Source: a bacterium
GTDB lineage: Bacteria; ARS69
Assembly: GCA_025774805.1 (NCBI GenBank)
Contig: JALGZR010000022.1
Location: 1-64,000, forward strand
Length of the DNA: 64,000 nt
Direction: 5' to 3'
A program made the translations under genes and the position numbers. Every line of letters begins with the position of its first letter. Within the stretch, counting starts at the first letter, position 1. Below the pieces are notes generated by a model. The model ran no database searches, was not told the origin of the DNA, and saw nothing but the letters and a program-made list of their open reading frames with translations. This document shows positions 5,323 to 62,547 of this stretch, piece by piece.

Positions 5323-5503
5323 CAGCCTGCACTTCTCACCAGCTTCTTGGGCGGCCGCGGCAAAGCCGCGCCTGACCTCGTCGTCGGCGCGCTTCCGCGC
5401 TGCGACGGGGCTAAGGCCCCGTCTCGGGCATAAGCCCGCCGTCTCCTCGACAGACACGCCTATCCGCAGCCTCGCGACGAGCCTGGCGGGAAACGCGGGC
5501 TGA
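5323..5503. repeat. Palindromic interspersed repeat with internal hairpin array
   Basis: This element lies between two convergent genes. Its left end, CAGCCTGCACTTCTCACC (5323-5340), and right end, GGCGGGAAACGCGGGCTGA (5485-5503), are inverted and match the ends of repeats at 46032 and 53092. Inside are four consecutive tight hairpins: CGCGGC/GCCGCG (5356-5370), GCGCG/CGCGC (5387-5400), GACGGGGC/GCCCCGTC (5404-5423, perfect 8-bp stem, 4-base loop) and CGGGC/GCCCG (5425-5438). The array may also end transcription of both neighbours. Confidence 0.6.
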
Positions 5504-15700: not shown

Positions 15701-16542
15701 CTCGGCCCGACTACGACGACCTTCAGACCTTCCAGCTCATCCTCCACGATCCCGTCCACCATCCGACTCCGACAGGGGACGGAATCGTGCGGTTCCAATA
15801 CAAACAGATCGTCAACAATGACAACGAGAGGATGTACTCCACGGTCGGCATCGAGGACGAGACCGAGAGCGTCGGTCTCGAGTACACGTATGCGAATCTG
15901 TATCCGCCGGCCGCCGCTCCTCTGTCGGCGGGGCTCGCGATCGACTTCACCACCCGGGTCCCGCGCTACGACCCGTTCCGCCTCGTCCGGTTCACCGCCT
16001 CTCGGGCCGAATCGGGAGTGCAACTGGCGTGGGAGCCGTGCGACGACCGGCCGCGAAACGGCTACCGCGTGTACCGTGCCACCCCGAGCGGCGTCCATCG
16101 TCTCGTCGAGGGAGGGTCGCTGGGCCCGGAGGCCCGGAGCTTCCTGGACGGGGAGGCCGATCCGGGCGCGGCCCACTCCTACAAGATCGGATCTCTCGAC
16201 CCGGTCGGCAGCGAGGCCCTGTTCGGACCCTTCGCCTACACCGCCGACGGGAGCTCCATGCCCGCGCTCTCACTGGGGATCGAGGGCCCGAACCCGACGA
16301 CCTCCGGCCCGGTCCGGCTGCGGTACTCGATTCCCACCCGAGGTGAGGCGTGGCTCCGCATCTACTCGGTCACGGGCCGGCTCGTCCGCACGCTCGTGGG
16401 GACGGAGGTCGAGGCGGGGGTCTGGACCGTCGGCTGGGACGGTCGGGACGACGGGGGTCGCGAGGTCGCGAGCGGCGTTTACTTCGGTCGGCTCGAGGCG
16501 GGATCGGAGAGCCGCCGGACCAAGATCACCCTGATCCGATGA
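12709..16542 (+). CDS. Secreted gingipain-like (peptidase C25) protein with FlgD-like sorting domain
   Basis: 1277 residues, preceded by GGGAGGGA. A signal peptide (1-24) leads into a shortened pro-region and a C25 domain (about 165-520) with LLVGDVEQIPGYDY and DFLPDLELGRLSV. The presumed nucleophile is C404 in FVCLNGDF, very like gingipain R. The usual YxGHG His motif reads Y367-R-G-W370. Downstream lie two DDDSSGAS/GVLDPGDS beta domains, a YGYYAYDN/NGWASFE domain, a fibronectin-like segment (LAWEPCDDRPRNGYRVYR) and the FlgD-like domain ending KITLIR. It is followed 23 bases later by an outer-membrane protein gene, so the two may be cotranscribed. Confidence 0.87.
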   Translation: MRIFVRALWMALMTSALAQANVSAAEEPPFRPESITGTVRHSPGAAHVTLRDGTDAPFARPVLRLVALPPGAREPRLELPHGMPAPVEVTVGDLMILRGVPVAPVRISPASSRLRSEKVPRAIELDVRYREGLASRASTAAANHGRGFFAPYESFLLRDSGDTSGGSDEGAFLIVTAPEFVSGLGPLVAWKREMGFEVRVVTTDEAGTTNEDIRDHVENIYQSAPSPPQYLLLVGDVEQIPGYDYHQSVSDLPYSLLDGDDFLPDLELGRLSVQTVHDLETVVAKILCYEQDPNRAGDDAWFSRALMVGGNVGSATPVPVSRWCREQILDPAVGYTEVDTTYGPTIPPVGYWTMLPIISEGLSLISYRGWAYGWQGWEEPRFTVDHVPALTNGWMLPAVFSFVCLNGDFTEPECFGEAWIRAGTATEPKGGVAFLGNSENWSHTRYNDAAAIGAFDGIRANGIRRLGQILNASRAKIFEQFPDMVYYDPFTDESVEFYYYIYSLLGDPSMELRTAAPTPIQVVHADSIAQGSTLLEVTVLAEDGVTPVSDARVGVCQGETVLGSTRTDSSGLAGILASFEDTVDPVKITVTGTNLAPYRDSLVVYAGDPFLALEGFTVDDDSSGASLGNDDGLANPGETLELTVTVRNRGASGVTGVSGSLEALGGAAVQVGGVAFPDISAGATAASSAPFVVAIDEDAEDELVARFRLQISAGGDTSGAGFDLPVRAPDFRYESHSIGGDGVLDPGDSATLTLTVLNEGSIPATTSQAVLRSATPTLATVVDSSATFGPVAAGLTVTQAAPFTVAVSESAGVGQAAVWTLTFTTEEGYRSETGFSIVLGTVDHRAPLGPDAYGYYAYDNSDSDYPDAVPVYEWVTTSPTYGGSGTPLGLDDNTTIVIGLPFPFTFYGQSYDSLLVSDNGWASFEIAPYFDFYNWRMPNSYGVGAQLAPFWDNLDPNKEYQGQPVGDGVYSFHDAANHRLIVEWSRLGNKRSQHEEEARPDYDDLQTFQLILHDPVHHPTPTGDGIVRFQYKQIVNNDNERMYSTVGIEDETESVGLEYTYANLYPPAAAPLSAGLAIDFTTRVPRYDPFRLVRFTASRAESGVQLAWEPCDDRPRNGYRVYRATPSGVHRLVEGGSLGPEARSFLDGEADPGAAHSYKIGSLDPVGSEALFGPFAYTADGSSMPALSLGIEGPNPTTSGPVRLRYSIPTRGEAWLRIYSVTGRLVRTLVGTEVEAGVWTVGWDGRDDGGREVASGVYFGRLEAGSESRRTKITLIR

Positions 16543-16565
16543 AGCCCGAGGGAAGAGAGAGACTC

Positions 16566-17681
16566 ATGACCCCCCGCGCGAGGTCGATCGGGATCCTGGC
16601 CCTGGCTCTCCTGGTCGCCGCCGCCCCGGCGGGGGCCAAGGGGAAGAAGAAGCCGGCGCCTCCCGTCCGGTTCTCCGGGAAGGTCGCCCTCCGGGTCGTC
16701 TACGACGACAACATCATTCACTACTCGGACGAGGATCTCCGCGAGTTCGAGACGACTCCGGTTCCCGGGAAGTACTCGATCACGAGGGCCGGGGACTGGA
16801 TCGTCCGGCCTCGGCTCGAGCTGACCGCGAAGAGCAAGGAGCTCACGGGCCGGACGATGGAGCTTCGCGTTCGCCTCTCGAGTTGGCAGTACGTCGAGAA
16901 CATCATCAAGAACAACGAGTCCTTCTCAGTGCGACTGAAACACCCGGGACTCGGAAAGGGCAACTTCCAACTCAATTTCTATCACGCGCCGGAATCCTAC
17001 CTGAGGAATTTCCGGGACCGCCCTCCGGTCGTTCCCCCGTCGACCTCCTCGGAGTACACCGACTTCTCCTACACCTCGACCTCCCTCTCGCTCGCCCACT
17101 GGCGCCGCCTCTCCGAGAAGCTGGAGGGGAAGCTGGAGGTGAAGAGGGCATGGCGCTACTACAACCAGGCGTTCATGGAGAACGACAACAAGGAATGGAG
17201 GGTCGGAGGATACCTGACCTATCGGCTCGTGAAGCCGTTGAAGGTGACGGGGGAGTACTTCTACAGCGACGTGGAGGCCCGCGCCGCGGACACCGAGGGT
17301 GAGACGCGGGAGTTGTCCGACGACGGAGACGCCTCCTACGAGCGCGACTCCTACAAGCTGTCCCTCGGCTTTTACCTGGGGAATAACCTCGTGAGGCTCA
17401 GCCGGCTGACGCTCAGCGGCCAGTACCAGGCGTACTACTTCACGAGCCGAAGGCCCCCGGACGAAGACCGGTATCACGTGGGACGAAAGGACGAGATGAC
17501 GCGCTACGAGGTCAGCGGGTCCACCCGGGCCCTCGTGAGTTCGGCCAGTTTGGAGGGCGGTTACCGGTATACGGAGCGCGATTCGTCCGCACCCTGGGAG
17601 ACCGGTGAAGGCGAGAGCATCGACGAGGACAAGGACTACACCGACCACCGAGTCTGGCTCGGAGTGGAGTACGCGTTCTAG
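16566..17681 (+). CDS. Predicted outer-membrane beta-barrel protein
   Basis: 371 residues with a signal peptide (GILALALLVAAAPAGA). The mature protein is made of alternating amphipathic stretches such as GKVALRVVYDDNIIHYS, KLEGKLEVKRAWRYYNQ and RLTLSGQYQAYYF, and ends WLGVEYAF. The terminal Phe is the classical C-terminal signature read by the BAM machinery. AGGGA lies upstream of ATG 16566; a longer in-frame extension overlaps the preceding gene and is not believed. A role as a partner for display of the preceding C25 protein is only a suggestion from its position. The TAG stop is part of a CTAG that starts a palindromic repeat. Confidence 0.75.
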   Translation: MTPRARSIGILALALLVAAAPAGAKGKKKPAPPVRFSGKVALRVVYDDNIIHYSDEDLREFETTPVPGKYSITRAGDWIVRPRLELTAKSKELTGRTMELRVRLSSWQYVENIIKNNESFSVRLKHPGLGKGNFQLNFYHAPESYLRNFRDRPPVVPPSTSSEYTDFSYTSTSLSLAHWRRLSEKLEGKLEVKRAWRYYNQAFMENDNKEWRVGGYLTYRLVKPLKVTGEYFYSDVEARAADTEGETRELSDDGDASYERDSYKLSLGFYLGNNLVRLSRLTLSGQYQAYYFTSRRPPDEDRYHVGRKDEMTRYEVSGSTRALVSSASLEGGYRYTERDSSAPWETGEGESIDEDKDYTDHRVWLGVEYAF

Positions 17682-17730
17682 CCTGCATTCGTCACTGACC
17701 TCGCGAGGGGCGTGGCGAGACGTGCGGGCC
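17678..17730. repeat. Palindromic interspersed repeat, degenerate copy
   Basis: CTAGCCTGCATTCGTCAC starts on the stop codon of the preceding gene. GGCGAGACGTGCGGGCC at 17714-17730 is its degenerate inverted partner. The ends match the better preserved copies at 46032 and 53092. Confidence 0.5.
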
Positions 17731-27059: not shown

Positions 27060-27275
27060 GATCGCGGTGAGTAAAGGCGTTCGGAAGAGGCCGGCGAGGG
27101 AATCGGCGGACGAAGGGATCGGGATCGGCCGGCGGGGGGATCCGCCGCGGATGGCATGCTATCATGCGAGCGCCAGCGCTTTTCGCCGAGATTTTCTGAC
27201 GGATCGAGGCTAGCATCGAGACGGACTGACTTCCCGCGAACTCCGGATCCCGTCGCCCGGATCGGCGCTAACCGT

Positions 27276-44970: not shown

Positions 44971-46035
44971 ATGCCCACCAACGTCACGCCCGAGTACCGC
45001 CAGGCGGAGGCGGAGTACAAGAAAGCCCGGGAGCCGCAGGAACGTCTGCGCTGTCTGCGGGAAATGCTGCGCACCATTCCCAAGCACAAGGGAACGGAGC
45101 ACCTCCAGGCCGACATCAAGACCCGGATCAAGCAGCTCTCCGAAGACCTGGCCGGTCCGAAGAAGGGGGGCGCGCGCACCGGGCCCCCGCAGGTGATCCG
45201 GGCGGAGGGTGCGGCCCAGGTGAGCCTGATCGGTCCCCCGAACGCGGGCAAGTCGAGCCTCCTCGCCCGACTGACGGGCGCCCACACGGAGATCGGCCCG
45301 TATCCGTTCACCACGCGGTTTCCGATTCCCGGAATGCTCCCCTTCGAGGACATCCACTTCCAGCTCGTCGACCTGCCGCCTGTCTCCGCCGACTACATGG
45401 AGGGCTGGTACGTGAACGCGCTCCAGCCGAGTGACGCCGCGCTGCTCGTCGTCGACCTGAGCGACCCCGAGTGCCTGGACGACATCCCCGCCATACGGAA
45501 GCGGCTCGACGAGAGGCGCGTCACGCTCGCGGAGCGATGGCCCCACCCGCCGACGGGAGCGGGGCCGGGCGGGAACGGGGATGGCGACGGGGAGCCGCCG
45601 CCCGATCCCGCGGACCCCGAAGACGTCGACCCCTTTCGCATCTACCTGCCCACCCTGCTCGTCGCCAACAAGAGCGACCTCGATCCCGATCCCGAAGAGG
45701 TGCAAGTCCTCGAGGAGCTGCTCGGCGTCCGCTACCCCGCGATCGCCGTCTCGGCGAAGACCGGGCAGGGCCTGGACGCGCTCGGCCCTCTGCTGTTCCA
45801 CGGACTGGGTGTCGTCCGCGTCTACACCAAGATCCCCGGAAAGCCCCCGGACACCGCCCGCCCCTACACGGTCCGCCTCGGGGAGACCGTGCTCGACGTC
45901 GCCCGCCTCGTGCACCGGGACCTCGCCCAATCGCTGAAGTTCGCGCGGGTGTGGGGGAGCGGTCAGTTCGACGGCCAGCAGGTGGGGACCGACCATCCCG
46001 TCGCCGACGGGGACGTCGTCGAACTCCACACCTAG
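44971..46035 (+). CDS. Obg/DRG-like GTPase with TGS domain
   Basis: 354 residues. A charged helical N-terminus (1-75) precedes the G domain: G1 GPPNAGKSS (88-96), switch TTR (114-116), G3 VDLPPV (133-138) in place of the usual DxxG, G4 NKSD (233-236) and G5 SAK (261-263). A C-terminal TGS domain (about 283-353) has YTKIPGKPPD and VADGDVVELHT. This arrangement resembles archaeal/eukaryotic DRG GTPases, which act at the ribosome. A Pro/Gly/Asp-rich insert (about 192-218) is unusual. The TAG stop lies in a CTAG that begins a palindromic repeat. Confidence 0.85.
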   Translation: MPTNVTPEYRQAEAEYKKAREPQERLRCLREMLRTIPKHKGTEHLQADIKTRIKQLSEDLAGPKKGGARTGPPQVIRAEGAAQVSLIGPPNAGKSSLLARLTGAHTEIGPYPFTTRFPIPGMLPFEDIHFQLVDLPPVSADYMEGWYVNALQPSDAALLVVDLSDPECLDDIPAIRKRLDERRVTLAERWPHPPTGAGPGGNGDGDGEPPPDPADPEDVDPFRIYLPTLLVANKSDLDPDPEEVQVLEELLGVRYPAIAVSAKTGQGLDALGPLLFHGLGVVRVYTKIPGKPPDTARPYTVRLGETVLDVARLVHRDLAQSLKFARVWGSGQFDGQQVGTDHPVADGDVVELHT

Positions 46036-46094
46036 CCTGCATTGCTCACCGGGCTCGCCGCTGCCGCAGCAGAGGCTGGTGAGATATGCAGGCC
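46032..46094. repeat. Palindromic interspersed repeat, well preserved copy
   Basis: The left end CTAGCCTGCATTGCTCACC (46032-46050) and the right end GGTGAGATATGCAGGCC (46078-46094) are inverted copies. The core GCTGCCGCAGCAGAGGCT, read on the other strand, matches the core of the copy at 53092-53161. It starts on the stop codon of the GTPase gene and could also act as a terminator. Confidence 0.7.
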
Positions 46095-51933: not shown

Positions 51934-52914
51934 ATGACCTCGCCCCGGGATCCCCTGTCCTTCGTGCTGACGGAGTTCGAGCCCGCCTACCGTGACCTCC
52001 TCCGGAAGGGTGGGATCGACGAGAGGGTCGAGTCCGCCCTCGCCGAGCTCGCCGAGTGCCGCGCGTGTCCCCGCGACTGCGGAGTCAACCGGCTGGAGGA
52101 CCGGGCACGCGCCTGCAAGACCGGACGTCACGCTCTCGTCACGAGCGCCTTTCCGCACTTCGGCGAGGAGGACTGCCTGCGGGGATGGCGGGGCTCGGGA
52201 ACGATCTTCTTCGGGATGTGCAATCTCCGTTGCGTGTTCTGCCAGAACGCGGACATCTCACAGCAGAGAAGTGGTCGCGAGTGCACCGGTCGAGAGATCG
52301 CGAAGCTCATGCTCGACCTGCAGCGGACGGGATGTCACAACATCAACTTCGTCACTCCGGAGCACGTCGTGCCTCAGGTCATCGAGGCCATCGCCGAGGC
52401 CGTGCGGCGCGGGCTTCGTGTCCCGATCGTCTACAACACGAGCGCCTACGACTCGCTCCGCTCGCTCCGTCTGCTCGACGGCCTGGTCGACATCTACATG
52501 CCCGACTTCAAGTTCTGGAAGTCGGAGACCGCCCACCGCCTGGCGTTGGCCCGTGACTACCCCGAGCGCGCGCAGGAGGCGATCCGGGAGATGCACCGGC
52601 AGGTCGAGGACTTGAAGTTCGGGCCGGACGGCGTCGCGAAACGGGGACTGCTCGTGCGCCACCTCGTCATGCCGGGACAGGGCGCCGAGTCGGCGGCCAT
52701 CCTCGAATGGCTCGCCCGGGAAATCTCCCCCGACACGTTCGTGAACATCATGGACCAGTACCGTCCCGCGAACGCGGTCGGGCGTCCCGCGAGAGACGGG
52801 GTCGTCCGGTATGCGGAGATCGATCGCCCGGTGCGCTCCGACGAGCTGGAGAACGCCTATCGCGCCGCCCGCCGGGCGGGGCTCTGGCGATTCGACGGGC
52901 TCGACGCCGCCTAG
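51934..52914 (+). CDS. Radical SAM protein of the PflA-like (COG1313) type
   Basis: 326 residues from ATG 51934. It carries the radical SAM cluster motif C96-x3-C100-x2-C103 in GMCNLRCVFCQNADIS and an extra N-terminal Cys set (C42, C45, C49, C61) for a possible second cluster. After the barrel come CHNINFVTPEHVVPQVIEAI, DIYMPDFKFW and NIMDQYRPANAV, all standard for COG1313 proteins, which are annotated as putative pyruvate-formate-lyase activating enzymes. No glycyl radical enzyme is nearby, so its target is unknown. The TAG stop belongs to the CTAG that begins the compound repeat at 52911. Confidence 0.88.
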   Translation: MTSPRDPLSFVLTEFEPAYRDLLRKGGIDERVESALAELAECRACPRDCGVNRLEDRARACKTGRHALVTSAFPHFGEEDCLRGWRGSGTIFFGMCNLRCVFCQNADISQQRSGRECTGREIAKLMLDLQRTGCHNINFVTPEHVVPQVIEAIAEAVRRGLRVPIVYNTSAYDSLRSLRLLDGLVDIYMPDFKFWKSETAHRLALARDYPERAQEAIREMHRQVEDLKFGPDGVAKRGLLVRHLVMPGQGAESAAILEWLAREISPDTFVNIMDQYRPANAVGRPARDGVVRYAEIDRPVRSDELENAYRAARRAGLWRFDGLDAA

Positions 52915-53095
52915 CCCGGACTATTCATGAACGACCTGCTGCGATCGCGGATCCGCACCACCGGACGGGCGTCCTCGCGCCTCGCACCCTGCGACGTATC
53001 GTTCAGATACGACTCGGGTTCGAGCCCCTGCGGGTGCCCGTCCGGTGGGCGTCTCCACGATCTCGCGACGGCCCTTCATGAACAGTCCGGCCTAG
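52911..53095. repeat. Long palindromic element with CTAG ends
   Basis: The terminal repeats CTAGCCCGGACTATTCATGAA (52911-52931) and TTCATGAACAGTCCGGCCTAG (53075-53095) are inverted, 19 of 21 matching. Inside are the inverted arms CCACCGGACGGGC/GCCCGTCCGGTGG (13 bp, perfect) and a central hairpin CGTATC/GATACG. It holds no credible ORF. The left CTAG contains the stop of the radical-SAM gene. Confidence 0.7.
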
Positions 53096-53161
53096 CCTGC
53101 CCATCTCACCAGCCTCTGCTGCGGCAGAGTCCCGCTGCGCCCGGTGAGAAATGCGGTCTAG
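53092..53161. repeat. Palindromic interspersed repeat sharing CTAG with the preceding element
   Basis: CTAGCCTGCCCATCTCACC (53092-53110) and GGTGAGAAATGCGGTCTAG (53143-53161) are inverted ends. The core AGCCTCTGCTGCGGCAG is identical to the reverse complement of the core at 46032-46094. The right CTAG contains the TAG stop (53160-53158) of the minus-strand gene that follows. Confidence 0.7.
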
Positions 53162-54624
53162 GACGCGCGCCGCAGGCCCGCCGCGCTCCCGGCCACCAGG
53201 GCTCCGATCACCGCCCCGAGCCCGATCGAAGCGGCGACCGGCACCCCGGACAGAGGGAAGAGGATCCACCAGACGTCGGGGAGCCCCCGGGTCTCGTCGG
53301 GGGATCCGGTGAGGATCGAGCGGTAGGGATCCACGTCCGGGTCGCGCCGGAAGTGGGCGTACCGGGCGGGGAGCTGACGGAAGACGCGAAGAGCGTGATC
53401 CGATTGGATGAGGAGCTGGGATGTCCTCGGGTTGAAATGGTACCGCCCGACCCTCTCCACGACACCCCGCTTCCGAAGCTGCTCGTTGTACCAGAGGTAA
53501 TACGTCTCGTAGCTCATCGTGGCGCCCACCAGTTGAACGAACACGGAGATCGAGATGAGGGGGATGAACAGCCTCTTGGGTCGAGGGAAGCTCTCGAGGC
53601 GGGGCAGCAGCCCCAGCGCGAGGACGGGAACCAGAGGGAGGAGATGGCGCGGCCCCCACGTCCAGTCTCCGTTCCACACCGTGGTGAAGCTGAGAAAGGC
53701 GACGTACGTCCCCGCGATCCAGAGGATCGATCCCGTGAGGGCGGGCCTCTCGCGACGCAGCTCCCGGAATCCTCCGAGGGCGAGGAGCAGGACGGGACTG
53801 AACCAGAAGAAGCCGCGCCCCGGGCTCACCAGTAGGCCCACGATCCCCTCCCACTGCAGGGCGAAGTAGCGGAATCGGGTGAACGAGTAGCCGGTGGCGA
53901 AGAGGGAGCCCCAGCGATACCCGTTGTAGGAGAACGCGAGCGCGACGCCCGGGATCGCACCGGCGAGGAAGGCGGCGATCGCCCGGCCCCGCTCCGCCGG
54001 TTCTCTGTGGGAGAGGAGCCAGCCCAGACCGGGCGCCATCAGCACCGCGGAGGGCCGGAGGAGAAGGGCGAATCCGAACGCGAGACCGGCGAGCGCCGCC
54101 CCGCGAGCCGAGCTTCTCATCAAACCGTAGACACCAACGACGAGGGCGAGCATCTCCAGGGGTGCCTCGAACGTGAGCTTGCTCTGCGGCCACGCGAGAG
54201 TGCAGAGCCCGAAGAGCAGTCCGAGGCGAACCCCGGCCCGACCCGAGTAGCCGAGGAGGGAAGCGATCATCACGAGCAGAGCCCCGGTCGCCGCGGTCGC
54301 GAGGGGATTGATCAGGGTGACGAGGCGGGAGTCGAGCTCCCCGCCGAACCGGACGAACGGGATCATCAGCAACGACTGGCCGAGCCCGTAGACCGAGTAG
54401 TGTTTTCCGTCCCGTCCCTCGAACGATCCGACGACCCCGAAGGGAGTGCGCATGTGCATTCGGGGCACGTCGGGAGATCCGCGCTCCACGAGACCGCGGG
54501 CGACCTCGAGCCGAACGGCGGTGTCGATCGTCTCGATCCGAAACGAGCTCGTCGCCAGATACGCTCCCAGAAGGATCGCGAACACGGCGACCGACCGCCC
54601 GGGAATCGTCCGATCGCGCGACAT
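53158..54624 (-). CDS. GT-C type multi-pass membrane protein
   Basis: 488 residues from ATG 54624, overlapping the previous gene's stop (ATGA). About eleven hydrophobic helices. The first loop contains IETIDTAVRLEVARGLVERG followed by HYSVYGLGQSLLMIPF, a pattern of bacterial GT39/ArnT-like proteins with a periplasmic acidic residue. Later segments include GRGFFWFSPVLLLALGG and DWTWGPRHLLPLVPVLALGLL. Probably a polyprenyl-phosphate sugar transferase or related membrane enzyme; donor and acceptor are unknown. It is the last gene of a four-gene cluster. Confidence 0.72.
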   Translation of the reverse strand: MSRDRTIPGRSVAVFAILLGAYLATSSFRIETIDTAVRLEVARGLVERGSPDVPRMHMRTPFGVVGSFEGRDGKHYSVYGLGQSLLMIPFVRFGGELDSRLVTLINPLATAATGALLVMIASLLGYSGRAGVRLGLLFGLCTLAWPQSKLTFEAPLEMLALVVGVYGLMRSSARGAALAGLAFGFALLLRPSAVLMAPGLGWLLSHREPAERGRAIAAFLAGAIPGVALAFSYNGYRWGSLFATGYSFTRFRYFALQWEGIVGLLVSPGRGFFWFSPVLLLALGGFRELRRERPALTGSILWIAGTYVAFLSFTTVWNGDWTWGPRHLLPLVPVLALGLLPRLESFPRPKRLFIPLISISVFVQLVGATMSYETYYLWYNEQLRKRGVVERVGRYHFNPRTSQLLIQSDHALRVFRQLPARYAHFRRDPDVDPYRSILTGSPDETRGLPDVWWILFPLSGVPVAASIGLGAVIGALVAGSAAGLRRAS

Positions 54625-56252
54625 CAGAGACCTCCCCCCCCGGCGGAGTCGACGGAGCGGAACACTTCCCTCTCGGCGACGTCCTTGCGGACCGCGATCA
54701 CGCATCGTCGCCCCCCGCGCCCGGGAAGGGAGAGATCGAGAAGTCGATAGTGGCGTTGCAGCTTCGACCGGTCCCCGTCGGCGACGTACAGCGCCATGCG
54801 GCGCCTCTCTCCCCGTGCCCGCACCTGGGGGCTCCCCAGGATGTAGTGCGGGCGCCGAGCCAGGAGCTCCCCGCTCTCCAAGAGGAGGGAGTGTCCGGGG
54901 CGGCGGTAGGGAGCGGGCTCGTACCGGGTCAGCTCCGGGGCCATCAGGCCGAGCTGGTCGATCGTGGTGAGCTTGGAAAAGTAGGGAACGCACCCCGCCG
55001 CGCTCGTGGCGAGAGTGTCGGTGGGAGCGGCGAGCGCCCGGAGACGGCGTCCCACCCGGCTCCAGTCCTCGACGTAGCGGCGCAGGAGACCGACCGAATC
55101 GAGTCCGCGGCGCGTCCACTCACGCGTGGAGTCGTAGGACGTGGCCCCATTCAGTCCGACGTACGCGGCGAGTCCCAGCACGACGGCGGGTCGGACCCAT
55201 CGAGAACGCCCGGTCTCGCGCACGGCCCCCGTGTGCTCCGACAGCGCCTCTCCGGCGGCGAGAAGGCCGAAGGGAAGAATCGGGACGACGAAGCGATACA
55301 GGTCCATGAAGTCGCCCCCGACGGCGGCGACGTAGGCGAGATAGGGAAGCGTGACCGTCGCGGCGAGCCGGAGGAACGGAGACCGAGTTCCGTCCCCGGA
55401 CCGCCGGAGGAGCGCGAACAGCACGACTCCGGTCGGCAGGTACAGGTGCAGACGGAGAACGGAGAAGGCCACGTAACCCAAACCGATCGGGAGCATCCCC
55501 AGCCCGGGTGTCTTGGCGAGAAACGTGTTCGGAACCGGTCGGCCGAAGTAGAGGAGTCGCCAGACGACGAGAACCGCCAAGGGGACGACCCAGAGCGCGG
55601 CCCAGCCGAGCCAGCGACGGGCGGCGAGACGTCCTCGGAGGACTTCCCGACCGAGAAAGACACCGGAGAGCCCCGCGATCAACGCTCCCTCCGGACGGGT
55701 CAGACAGGAGAGCCCGAGGAGCGCCCCGCTCGCCGTCCGAAGTCGCACCGGAAAGCGTTCCGCCTCCCCCGACTCCACCAGCGTGAGAAGCGCGAGGGAC
55801 ACGAAGGCCGTGAACAGCGACGTCTCCAGCCCGCCCGTGGCCCACGCCGCCCAGCCGGCGTTCCCCGCGATCATCAAGCCGCCGGGCAGGAAGCTCCGGC
55901 TCCGCCGTCTCCGGCGCTCGAGCATCATCCCGAGGGTGGCGATTGCGACCGCGGCCCCCAATCCCGCCGTCCAACGTTCGGGGGGCAAACCCATCCGGAT
56001 GCCCGCGGCGCAGAGCAAGACCCAGAGCGGGCTCGTGAAGCCCTCGACCCGCTCGCCCGCGTTGAAGACCATCCCCTTCCCGTTCGCGAGGTTCTCCGCG
56101 TACCGGTAGGCGATGAACGCGTCGTCACACAGGAAGGAGAGGTAGAGAACGTGGGCCGCCGCGGCCACGAGGACCAGGAGGACGAGCCAGGGCGAGCGAT
56201 CGGGGGACGGCGTCAAGGCGATCTCCCGAGATCCTTTCGAGGGCGGGGGCAC
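54624..56252 (-). CDS. GT-C type multi-pass membrane protein (ArnT-like)
   Basis: 542 residues if read from GTG 56252 (GGAG upstream); TTG 56216 with GGGAG is equally possible and removes 12 residues. The N-terminal helix is followed by FLCDDAFIAYRYAENLANGKG and VEGFTSPLWVLL, a classic GT-C first loop with the catalytic Asp pair, then GGLETSLFTAF, LTRPEGAL and VPNTFLAKTPG. The C-terminal 150 residues are soluble (VPYFSKLTTIDQLGLMAPEL). The sequence matches a widespread family of bacterial cell-envelope glycosyltransferases. ATGA overlap couples it to the downstream GT-C gene. Confidence 0.78.
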   Translation of the reverse strand: MPPPSKGSREIALTPSPDRSPWLVLLVLVAAAAHVLYLSFLCDDAFIAYRYAENLANGKGMVFNAGERVEGFTSPLWVLLCAAGIRMGLPPERWTAGLGAAVAIATLGMMLERRRRRSRSFLPGGLMIAGNAGWAAWATGGLETSLFTAFVSLALLTLVESGEAERFPVRLRTASGALLGLSCLTRPEGALIAGLSGVFLGREVLRGRLAARRWLGWAALWVVPLAVLVVWRLLYFGRPVPNTFLAKTPGLGMLPIGLGYVAFSVLRLHLYLPTGVVLFALLRRSGDGTRSPFLRLAATVTLPYLAYVAAVGGDFMDLYRFVVPILPFGLLAAGEALSEHTGAVRETGRSRWVRPAVVLGLAAYVGLNGATSYDSTREWTRRGLDSVGLLRRYVEDWSRVGRRLRALAAPTDTLATSAAGCVPYFSKLTTIDQLGLMAPELTRYEPAPYRRPGHSLLLESGELLARRPHYILGSPQVRARGERRRMALYVADGDRSKLQRHYRLLDLSLPGRGGRRCVIAVRKDVAEREVFRSVDSAGGGGL

Positions 56253-62467: not shown

Positions 62468-62530
62468 AGCGGAGACGACCCCACGACGGAGCGGGACGCG
62501 GCCAGCCGCGGCCGCCGCGGAGGCGGGTCG

Positions 62531-62547
62531 GGTGAGGGATGCAGGCT
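62531..62547. repeat. Half copy of the palindromic interspersed repeat
   Basis: GGTGAGGGATGCAGGCT matches the right end of the copies at 46032 and 53092. I see no matching left end before it. Confidence 0.4.

Follow-up and report, generated by a model that had tools for sequence, protein, structure and literature searches.

CTAG-associated repeats with IS1380-type ends and a conserved hairpin core in a bacterial genome of the ARS69 lineage

Repeats and neighboring genes at the locus

The window, that is, the whole stretch of DNA analyzed here, comprises 64,000 nucleotides of contig JALGZR010000022.1 (assembly GCA_025774805.1). It contains a set of short repeats with terminal inverted repeats (TIRs) of three families, most of them next to a CTAG tetranucleotide. 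The relevant features are as follows:

5326-5499, minus strand: full-length element, 174 bp, TIR family 1, degenerate
17678-17681, no strand: CTAG and TAG stop of ORF 16350-17681 (+)
17682-17728, no strand: degenerate, internally deleted element, 47 bp, TIR family 1
27147-27209, minus strand: right-hand remnant, TIR family 3 (CCTCGATCCGTCAGAA), followed by CTAG at 27210-27213
46032-46035, no strand: CTAG (putative target site) and TAG stop of ORF 44971-46035 (+), a TGS-domain GTPase
46036-46092, plus strand: internally deleted element, 57 bp, TIR family 1 (CCTGCATTGCTCACCGG / CCTGCATATCTCACCAG)
52911-52914, no strand: CTAG and TAG stop of the radical-SAM ORF 51934-52914 (+)
52915-53091, minus strand: full-length element, 177 bp, TIR family 2 (CCCGGACTATTCATGAA), with the same hairpin core
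53092-53095, no strand: CTAG common to two tandem elements
53096-53157, minus strand: internally deleted element, 62 bp, TIR family 1
53158-53161, no strand: CTAG and TAG stop of ORF 53158-55119 (-)
62529-62545, minus strand: lone right end, TIR family 1, followed by CTGG

The original prediction, made from the letters of the window, had placed palindromic copies at 46032-46094 and 53092-53161, and both were recovered as described, with the element proper beginning after the CTAG. They lie in opposite orientations, and the first of them (fold z -4.6) has lost its right-hand CTAG, where CCCC is now found. The degenerate copies proposed at 5323-5503, 17678-17730 and 62531-62547 are also present, although their boundaries had to be redrawn; the copy at 5326-5499 matches the consensus at 85% and is flanked by CCAG and CTGA. 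Two further candidate sites (22124 and 56305) failed even when up to four mismatches were allowed and probably represent chance resemblance. Eight matches to the left-end pattern were counted in the window, where 1.75 would be expected; none of the shuffled sequences reached eight.

A full-length element at 52915-53091 (fold z -10.2) had been missed. Model R1 of the hairpin core (see below) matches it at 52932-53074 with 40.7 bits and an E-value of 1.1e-6. On one side it abuts the stop CTAG of ORF 51934-52914 (+), on the other a CTAG that it has in common with the copy at 53096, and the resulting tandem pair (52915-53091 and 53096-53157) is bordered by convergent genes whose stops are the two outer CTAGs. 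As had been observed earlier, three ORFs, 44971-46035 (+), 16350-17681 (+) and 53158-55119 (-), take their TAG stop from a terminal CTAG, and the statement that no mobilizing enzyme is encoded within the window holds as well. The TGS-domain match in ORF 44971-46035 (+) spans to the final profile position, and therefore the stop at 46035 is the natural C-terminus of this protein. Intact copies of TIR family 3, 187 bp in length, were observed elsewhere (L212:4322-4508 and L225:4462-4648; L and G numbers denote loci and genomes), and elements of this family (CCTCGATCCGTCAGAA) have CTAG on both sides.

Copy number and the CTAG target

A high-copy family had been predicted, and a genome-wide search supported this: the 18-base end motif GCCTGCATNTCTCACCNG had 490 matches in the 5.1-Mb genome (at most two mismatches), whereas the reversed control had none. 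TIR family 2 had 65 end matches genome-wide (reversed control, 2). We sampled 864 kb (forty 20-kb stretches and the window) and found 64 paired elements, mainly of ~174 bp and 45-90 bp; the corresponding density estimate of ~380 copies is biased upward because the sampled contigs were picked for holding at least one end. The long form has 174 bp with a TIR of 17 bp (CCTGCATTTCTCACCAG), and neither it nor the short copies of 47-90 bp contain a transposase gene. Of the long form, short copies retain the TIRs and a single arm; the 47-62-bp copies that were first noticed in the window are among them and are internally deleted forms of the 174-bp element. The six elements inside called genes give no evidence of gene disruption, since they fall in over-extended 5' parts of the ORFs. 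It was also observed that each end carries an outward GGTGAGANATG and that ORFs of the flanking DNA often open from that ATG (for example, L187:7614-7688 and L190:19564-19737), which could come either from faulty annotation or from a start site that moves with the elements.

The flanks of the elements are far from random. CTAG was present on both sides of 23 of the 64 sampled elements and on at least one side of 45, which tightly ties this tetranucleotide to the element ends, as had been anticipated. In a Deltaproteobacteria MAG, 20 sampled copies were 99.6% identical; 19 of them were flanked by CTAG at either end, while the DNA beyond was unrelated from copy to copy. At three loci (L118, L148 and L177) TTAG was found on both sides, and tandem elements have one CTAG in common (C8, C80 and window positions 53092-53095). 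These arrangements point to a 4-bp target duplication; a 2-bp TA duplication was also considered, which the TTAG/TTAG loci and the CTAG-sharing tandems fit less well. Several elements (L188:10823-10996 and L185:1994-2167) precisely fill the space between two convergent ORFs, each of which ends in CTAG, a layout that duplication of a single shared CTAG would produce. CTAG itself is depleted in the 864-kb sample (235 observed versus 671 expected from trinucleotides), and 82 of these 235 sites lie at element ends.

IS1380 transposons with the same ends

Annotated plasmid-borne elements of the IS1380 family (NF033539 / PF13701) in Pseudomonas, Stutzerimonas, Bradyrhizobium and Rhizobium carry the TIR CCCGCATTTCTCACA or near variants of it, with CTAG on both sides at L178, L179 and L183 and TTAG on both sides at L177. 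When the repeat-bearing genomes were profile-searched with the IS1380 transposase family PF13701, IS1380 genes were found to end in the same motif beside CTAG or TTAG (L165, L166, L170 and L175). Shuffled sequence totalling 1.6 Mb contained no instance of the pattern CTAG-N6-TTTCTCAC. For TIR family 2 (CCCGGATGATTCATGA), an intact IS1380 element of 1682 bp flanked by CTAG on both sides was identified (L204), whose transposase has 459 aa (NF033539, E = 6.6e-123) and whose genome also holds 16 hairpin cores. Thus, on the basis of the TIRs and of the CTAG or TTAG duplications, both main end types of the window (families 1 and 2) belong to IS1380-family transposons, and orphan repeat families in many MAGs are thereby tied to IS1380 transposases.

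The repeats differ from these transposons in that they lack a transposase gene and have a conserved hairpin body that is absent from the IS ends examined. The conserved core and subterminal motifs were not found in any autonomous IS1380 element, and comparison by eye of the body with the noncoding ends of the examined IS1380 elements revealed no resemblance; internal deletion of a parent IS, from which the bodies of some MITEs but not of others stem, was therefore not recognized as the source of this body. An IS1380 partner was identified only at L165 and L204 in a search of five genomes of the same phylum, the Eisenbacteria group and 395 genomes of the phylum of the Deltaproteobacteria MAG. 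Two core-bearing genomes, G103 and G140, have intact IS1380 genes. In the genome studied here (a MAG, 96% complete, 284 contigs), the only IS1380 transposase sequence detected was one C-terminal relic, a frame of 131 aa; the enzyme may have been lost, or may lie within the unassembled part. A 182-bp consensus yielded only short, low-scoring matches in plasmids and phages, the family 1 end pattern was absent from viral contigs, and the literature searched for the TIR strings or for IS1380 together with MITEs, mostly outside subscription journals, contained no description of such elements.

Two readings of the repeats should be discussed at this point. That elements are picked or retained for supplying stop codons or terminators could be suggested by the many elements that abut TAG stops (15 of the 45 CTAG-flanked elements, 33%). 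However, free CTAGs are stops at the same fraction (45 of 152, 30%; Fisher p = 0.71; both fractions are approximate, the gene calls coming from a simple codon model), which makes such selection very improbable. The coincidence arises because the CTAG target is scarce and often a TAG stop; it is a property of the target and no special mechanism is needed, so that the rarity of the target site accounts for repeats that provide stop codons, a puzzle often met in annotation. Orientation of the elements relative to neighboring genes was random as well (19 versus 17), which argues against a simple role in the 3' end of the upstream gene. The original prediction had favored REP/BIME elements mobilized by a RAYT (Y1 HUH) transposase encoded elsewhere in the genome. 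Its recognition of a high-copy, mobile, palindromic family stands, and REP/BIME repeats indeed resemble the present elements in being numerous, intergenic and palindromic with a conserved end tetranucleotide. By definition, however, a REP is a 20-40-bp palindrome that bears an unpaired tag, GTAG or CGTC, on one of its ends (PMC3733652), an arrangement that was not found in our elements: they measure 174 bp or are deletions thereof, CTAG is part of the target and occurs at both ends, and they have the long, 17-bp TIRs and the 4-bp duplication in common with the DDE elements of IS1380. In addition, PF01797 (Y1_Tnp) had no match in the genome, whereas 10 of 14 control genomes were positive. Both the REP/BIME identity and the mobilization by RAYT are hence extremely improbable.

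The hairpin core and its occurrence among bacteria

Elements of different phyla fold over their whole length into a single hairpin, and the positions of its internal loops agree among them. The full 174-bp unit is rod-like; its core, of ~143 nt, has asymmetric internal loops that are conserved and the apex GGAGGCGTAC...GTACGTCGAG. A covariance model (R1) built from nine elements of other phyla without their TIRs recovered the family 1 elements of this genome and scored higher on the second family, which has another TIR; the core is detectable only once the TIRs are taken out of the search. In an alignment of 17 elements, 54 of 59 pairs had changed on both sides and 87.2% of cells could pair, compared with 66.0% after shuffling, which leaves relatedness in, and 33-43% when slid, the structure having been derived from the same alignment. 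Even so, slid controls this low and an effect this large are difficult to account for in any other way. The strand with TTCGTNGCGAG on its 5' side folded better in 16 of the 17 elements (mean -103 versus -84 kcal/mol). On this sense strand G.U outnumbered A.C (89 versus 25), whereas the antisense strand, predicted afresh, gave 56 versus 64; in the copies of this genome, whose cells are not independent, the ratio was 77 to 43. It is likely that the core is selected as a folded single strand. None of the Rfam 15 families matched at gathering score; the matches that appeared at relaxed E-values were microRNA-type hairpins, far under their cut-offs, and were rejected.

The end pattern (one mismatch) was missing from 94 of 98 comparison genomes, and exact copies were found in assemblies of Deltaproteobacteria, Gammaproteobacteria, Acidobacteria, Verrucomicrobia, Nitrospira and Eisenbacteria; a TIR-bearing element was also present in Acanthopleuribacter pedis (L147). 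A refined core model (R2) had matches at E <= 1e-3 in 46 of 386 diverse genomes (~12%), an approximate figure that includes this genome and the model-input genomes, counts G691, apparently the same assembly as G103, and contains some matches to the inner model part only. Many matches had E-values of 1e-10 to 1e-40, with several copies per genome. The number of cores was at least 150 in the Deltaproteobacteria MAG, 64, 14 and 21 in three Acidobacteria-type genomes, 28 in Eisenbacteria and 19 in Nitrospira, and some genomes hold the hairpin in hundreds of copies. Many of the R2 matches bear IS1380-type ends, whereas others have quite different terminal repeats, such as GGGTCTGTCGCGAAAT, GGTCACCTCTGGAAA and TAGAAGCGGTTTCATAAG; some of these repeats may be IS5-family ends.

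On the basis of these results, we consider that the repeats are non-autonomous IS1380-type MITEs, moved in trans into CTAG, with a conserved hairpin core (probability about 0.88). From the shared ends and target we infer that an IS1380-family DDE transposase, supplied in trans, would recognize the TIR CCYGCATTTCTCACC(AG), excise or copy the element and join it into CTAG with duplication of those 4 bp. Because CTAG would be left on both sides, a stop would survive insertion beside it, and convergent genes sharing one CTAG would both keep theirs. Copies of 47-90 bp are deletion forms of the 174-bp unit. Most likely, the core would be retained since the folded single strand (RNA or ssDNA) acts for the element, for example by protecting or buffering transcripts of the insertion site. 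If the core does work in this way, it would explain the success of some bacterial MITEs and offer a testable handle on the role of MITE bodies.

Long palindromes are common in MITEs, and the elements might simply be ordinary internal-deletion MITEs of one IS1380 element, their hairpin being a functionless by-product conserved by descent or recent horizontal spread. The TIRs and the duplication are indeed those of IS1380, and near-identical bursts do occur, as in the Deltaproteobacteria MAG. Nevertheless, this appears less likely than not in view of arms that diverge yet stay paired, the conserved asymmetric loops, the presence of the core with unrelated TIRs, and the better folding of the sense strand together with the loss of the G.U excess on the antisense strand. 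Alternatively, the conserved unit could be a structured RNA (a regulatory or transcript-buffering hairpin) that different transposons have repeatedly taken up between their TIRs. Strand-specific folding, the wide occurrence of the core among the 386 genomes, the annotation of a probably related Geobacter family as predicted short RNAs and the position of one copy among tRNA genes (L240) agree with such capture, whereas the lack of orientation bias relative to neighboring genes in this genome and of any Rfam match does not; we would put it at a little short of an even chance. Similarly, it is a tentative suggestion, with odds slightly against it, that the ~143-nt core is an undescribed and widespread strand-specific RNA or ssDNA module riding between the TIRs of several unrelated transposon families. 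If so, the core would be no by-product of one transposon but a structured passenger, from which whichever MITE carries it would gain in success.

Returning to the preferred reading of IS1380-type MITEs with a conserved core, several known systems can be compared. The bacterial hairpin MITEs ERIC, NEMIS/Correia, RUP and Nezha (PMC3733652) are likewise non-coding, high-copy, intergenic elements of 70-300 bp with TIRs and a robust structure if transcribed; however, the present elements have IS1380-type ends and a CTAG target, and their core with asymmetric loops is common to several phyla and TIR types. The 2009 Geobacter genome paper describes 24 'predicted short RNA elements' with the central palindrome GRCGTAGCGCTGCTACGCC (PMC2700814). 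These short RNAs of Geobacter metallireducens are also multicopy and intergenic, and their palindrome is like the apex GGCGTAGC...GCTACGYC of the core, whereas they are reported from Geobacter and Desulfotalea only, and the text available mentions no TIRs, mobility or structural model (PMC2700814). Judging by this apex motif, the Gmet_R family is probably a relative of the core, and part of the core superfamily has thus probably been seen before. The eukaryotic piggyBac transposons, distant relatives of IS1380 (a relationship used in PMC10140906), share a palindromic 4-bp target (TTAA) and were compared for target use only.

Some variants of the elements were also observed. In Gammaproteobacteria, a 240-bp subtype (L105, L113, L118 and L137) consists of the hairpin in its first ~140 nt and ~100 nt more before the right TIR. 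At L240:1501-1642 (G053), a core lies among tRNA genes at 1316-1388, 1821-1902 and 1948-2020. Several loci (L293, L295, L296 and similar) match only the inner part of R2 (~120 nt, GATGCAAGGCG...GCAACGCAGCAGAT) with no recognizable TIRs, and are perhaps a free-standing relative of the core. Finally, copies in G039 (L239-L267) have the terminal stems CCCGCATTATTCATGAG, CCCGCATGCTTCATGAT, CCCTGATTATTCGTTGG and CCCGCATTTCTCACGAG on nearly the same core, each pair being complementary, and may reflect exchange or conversion of ends between copies.
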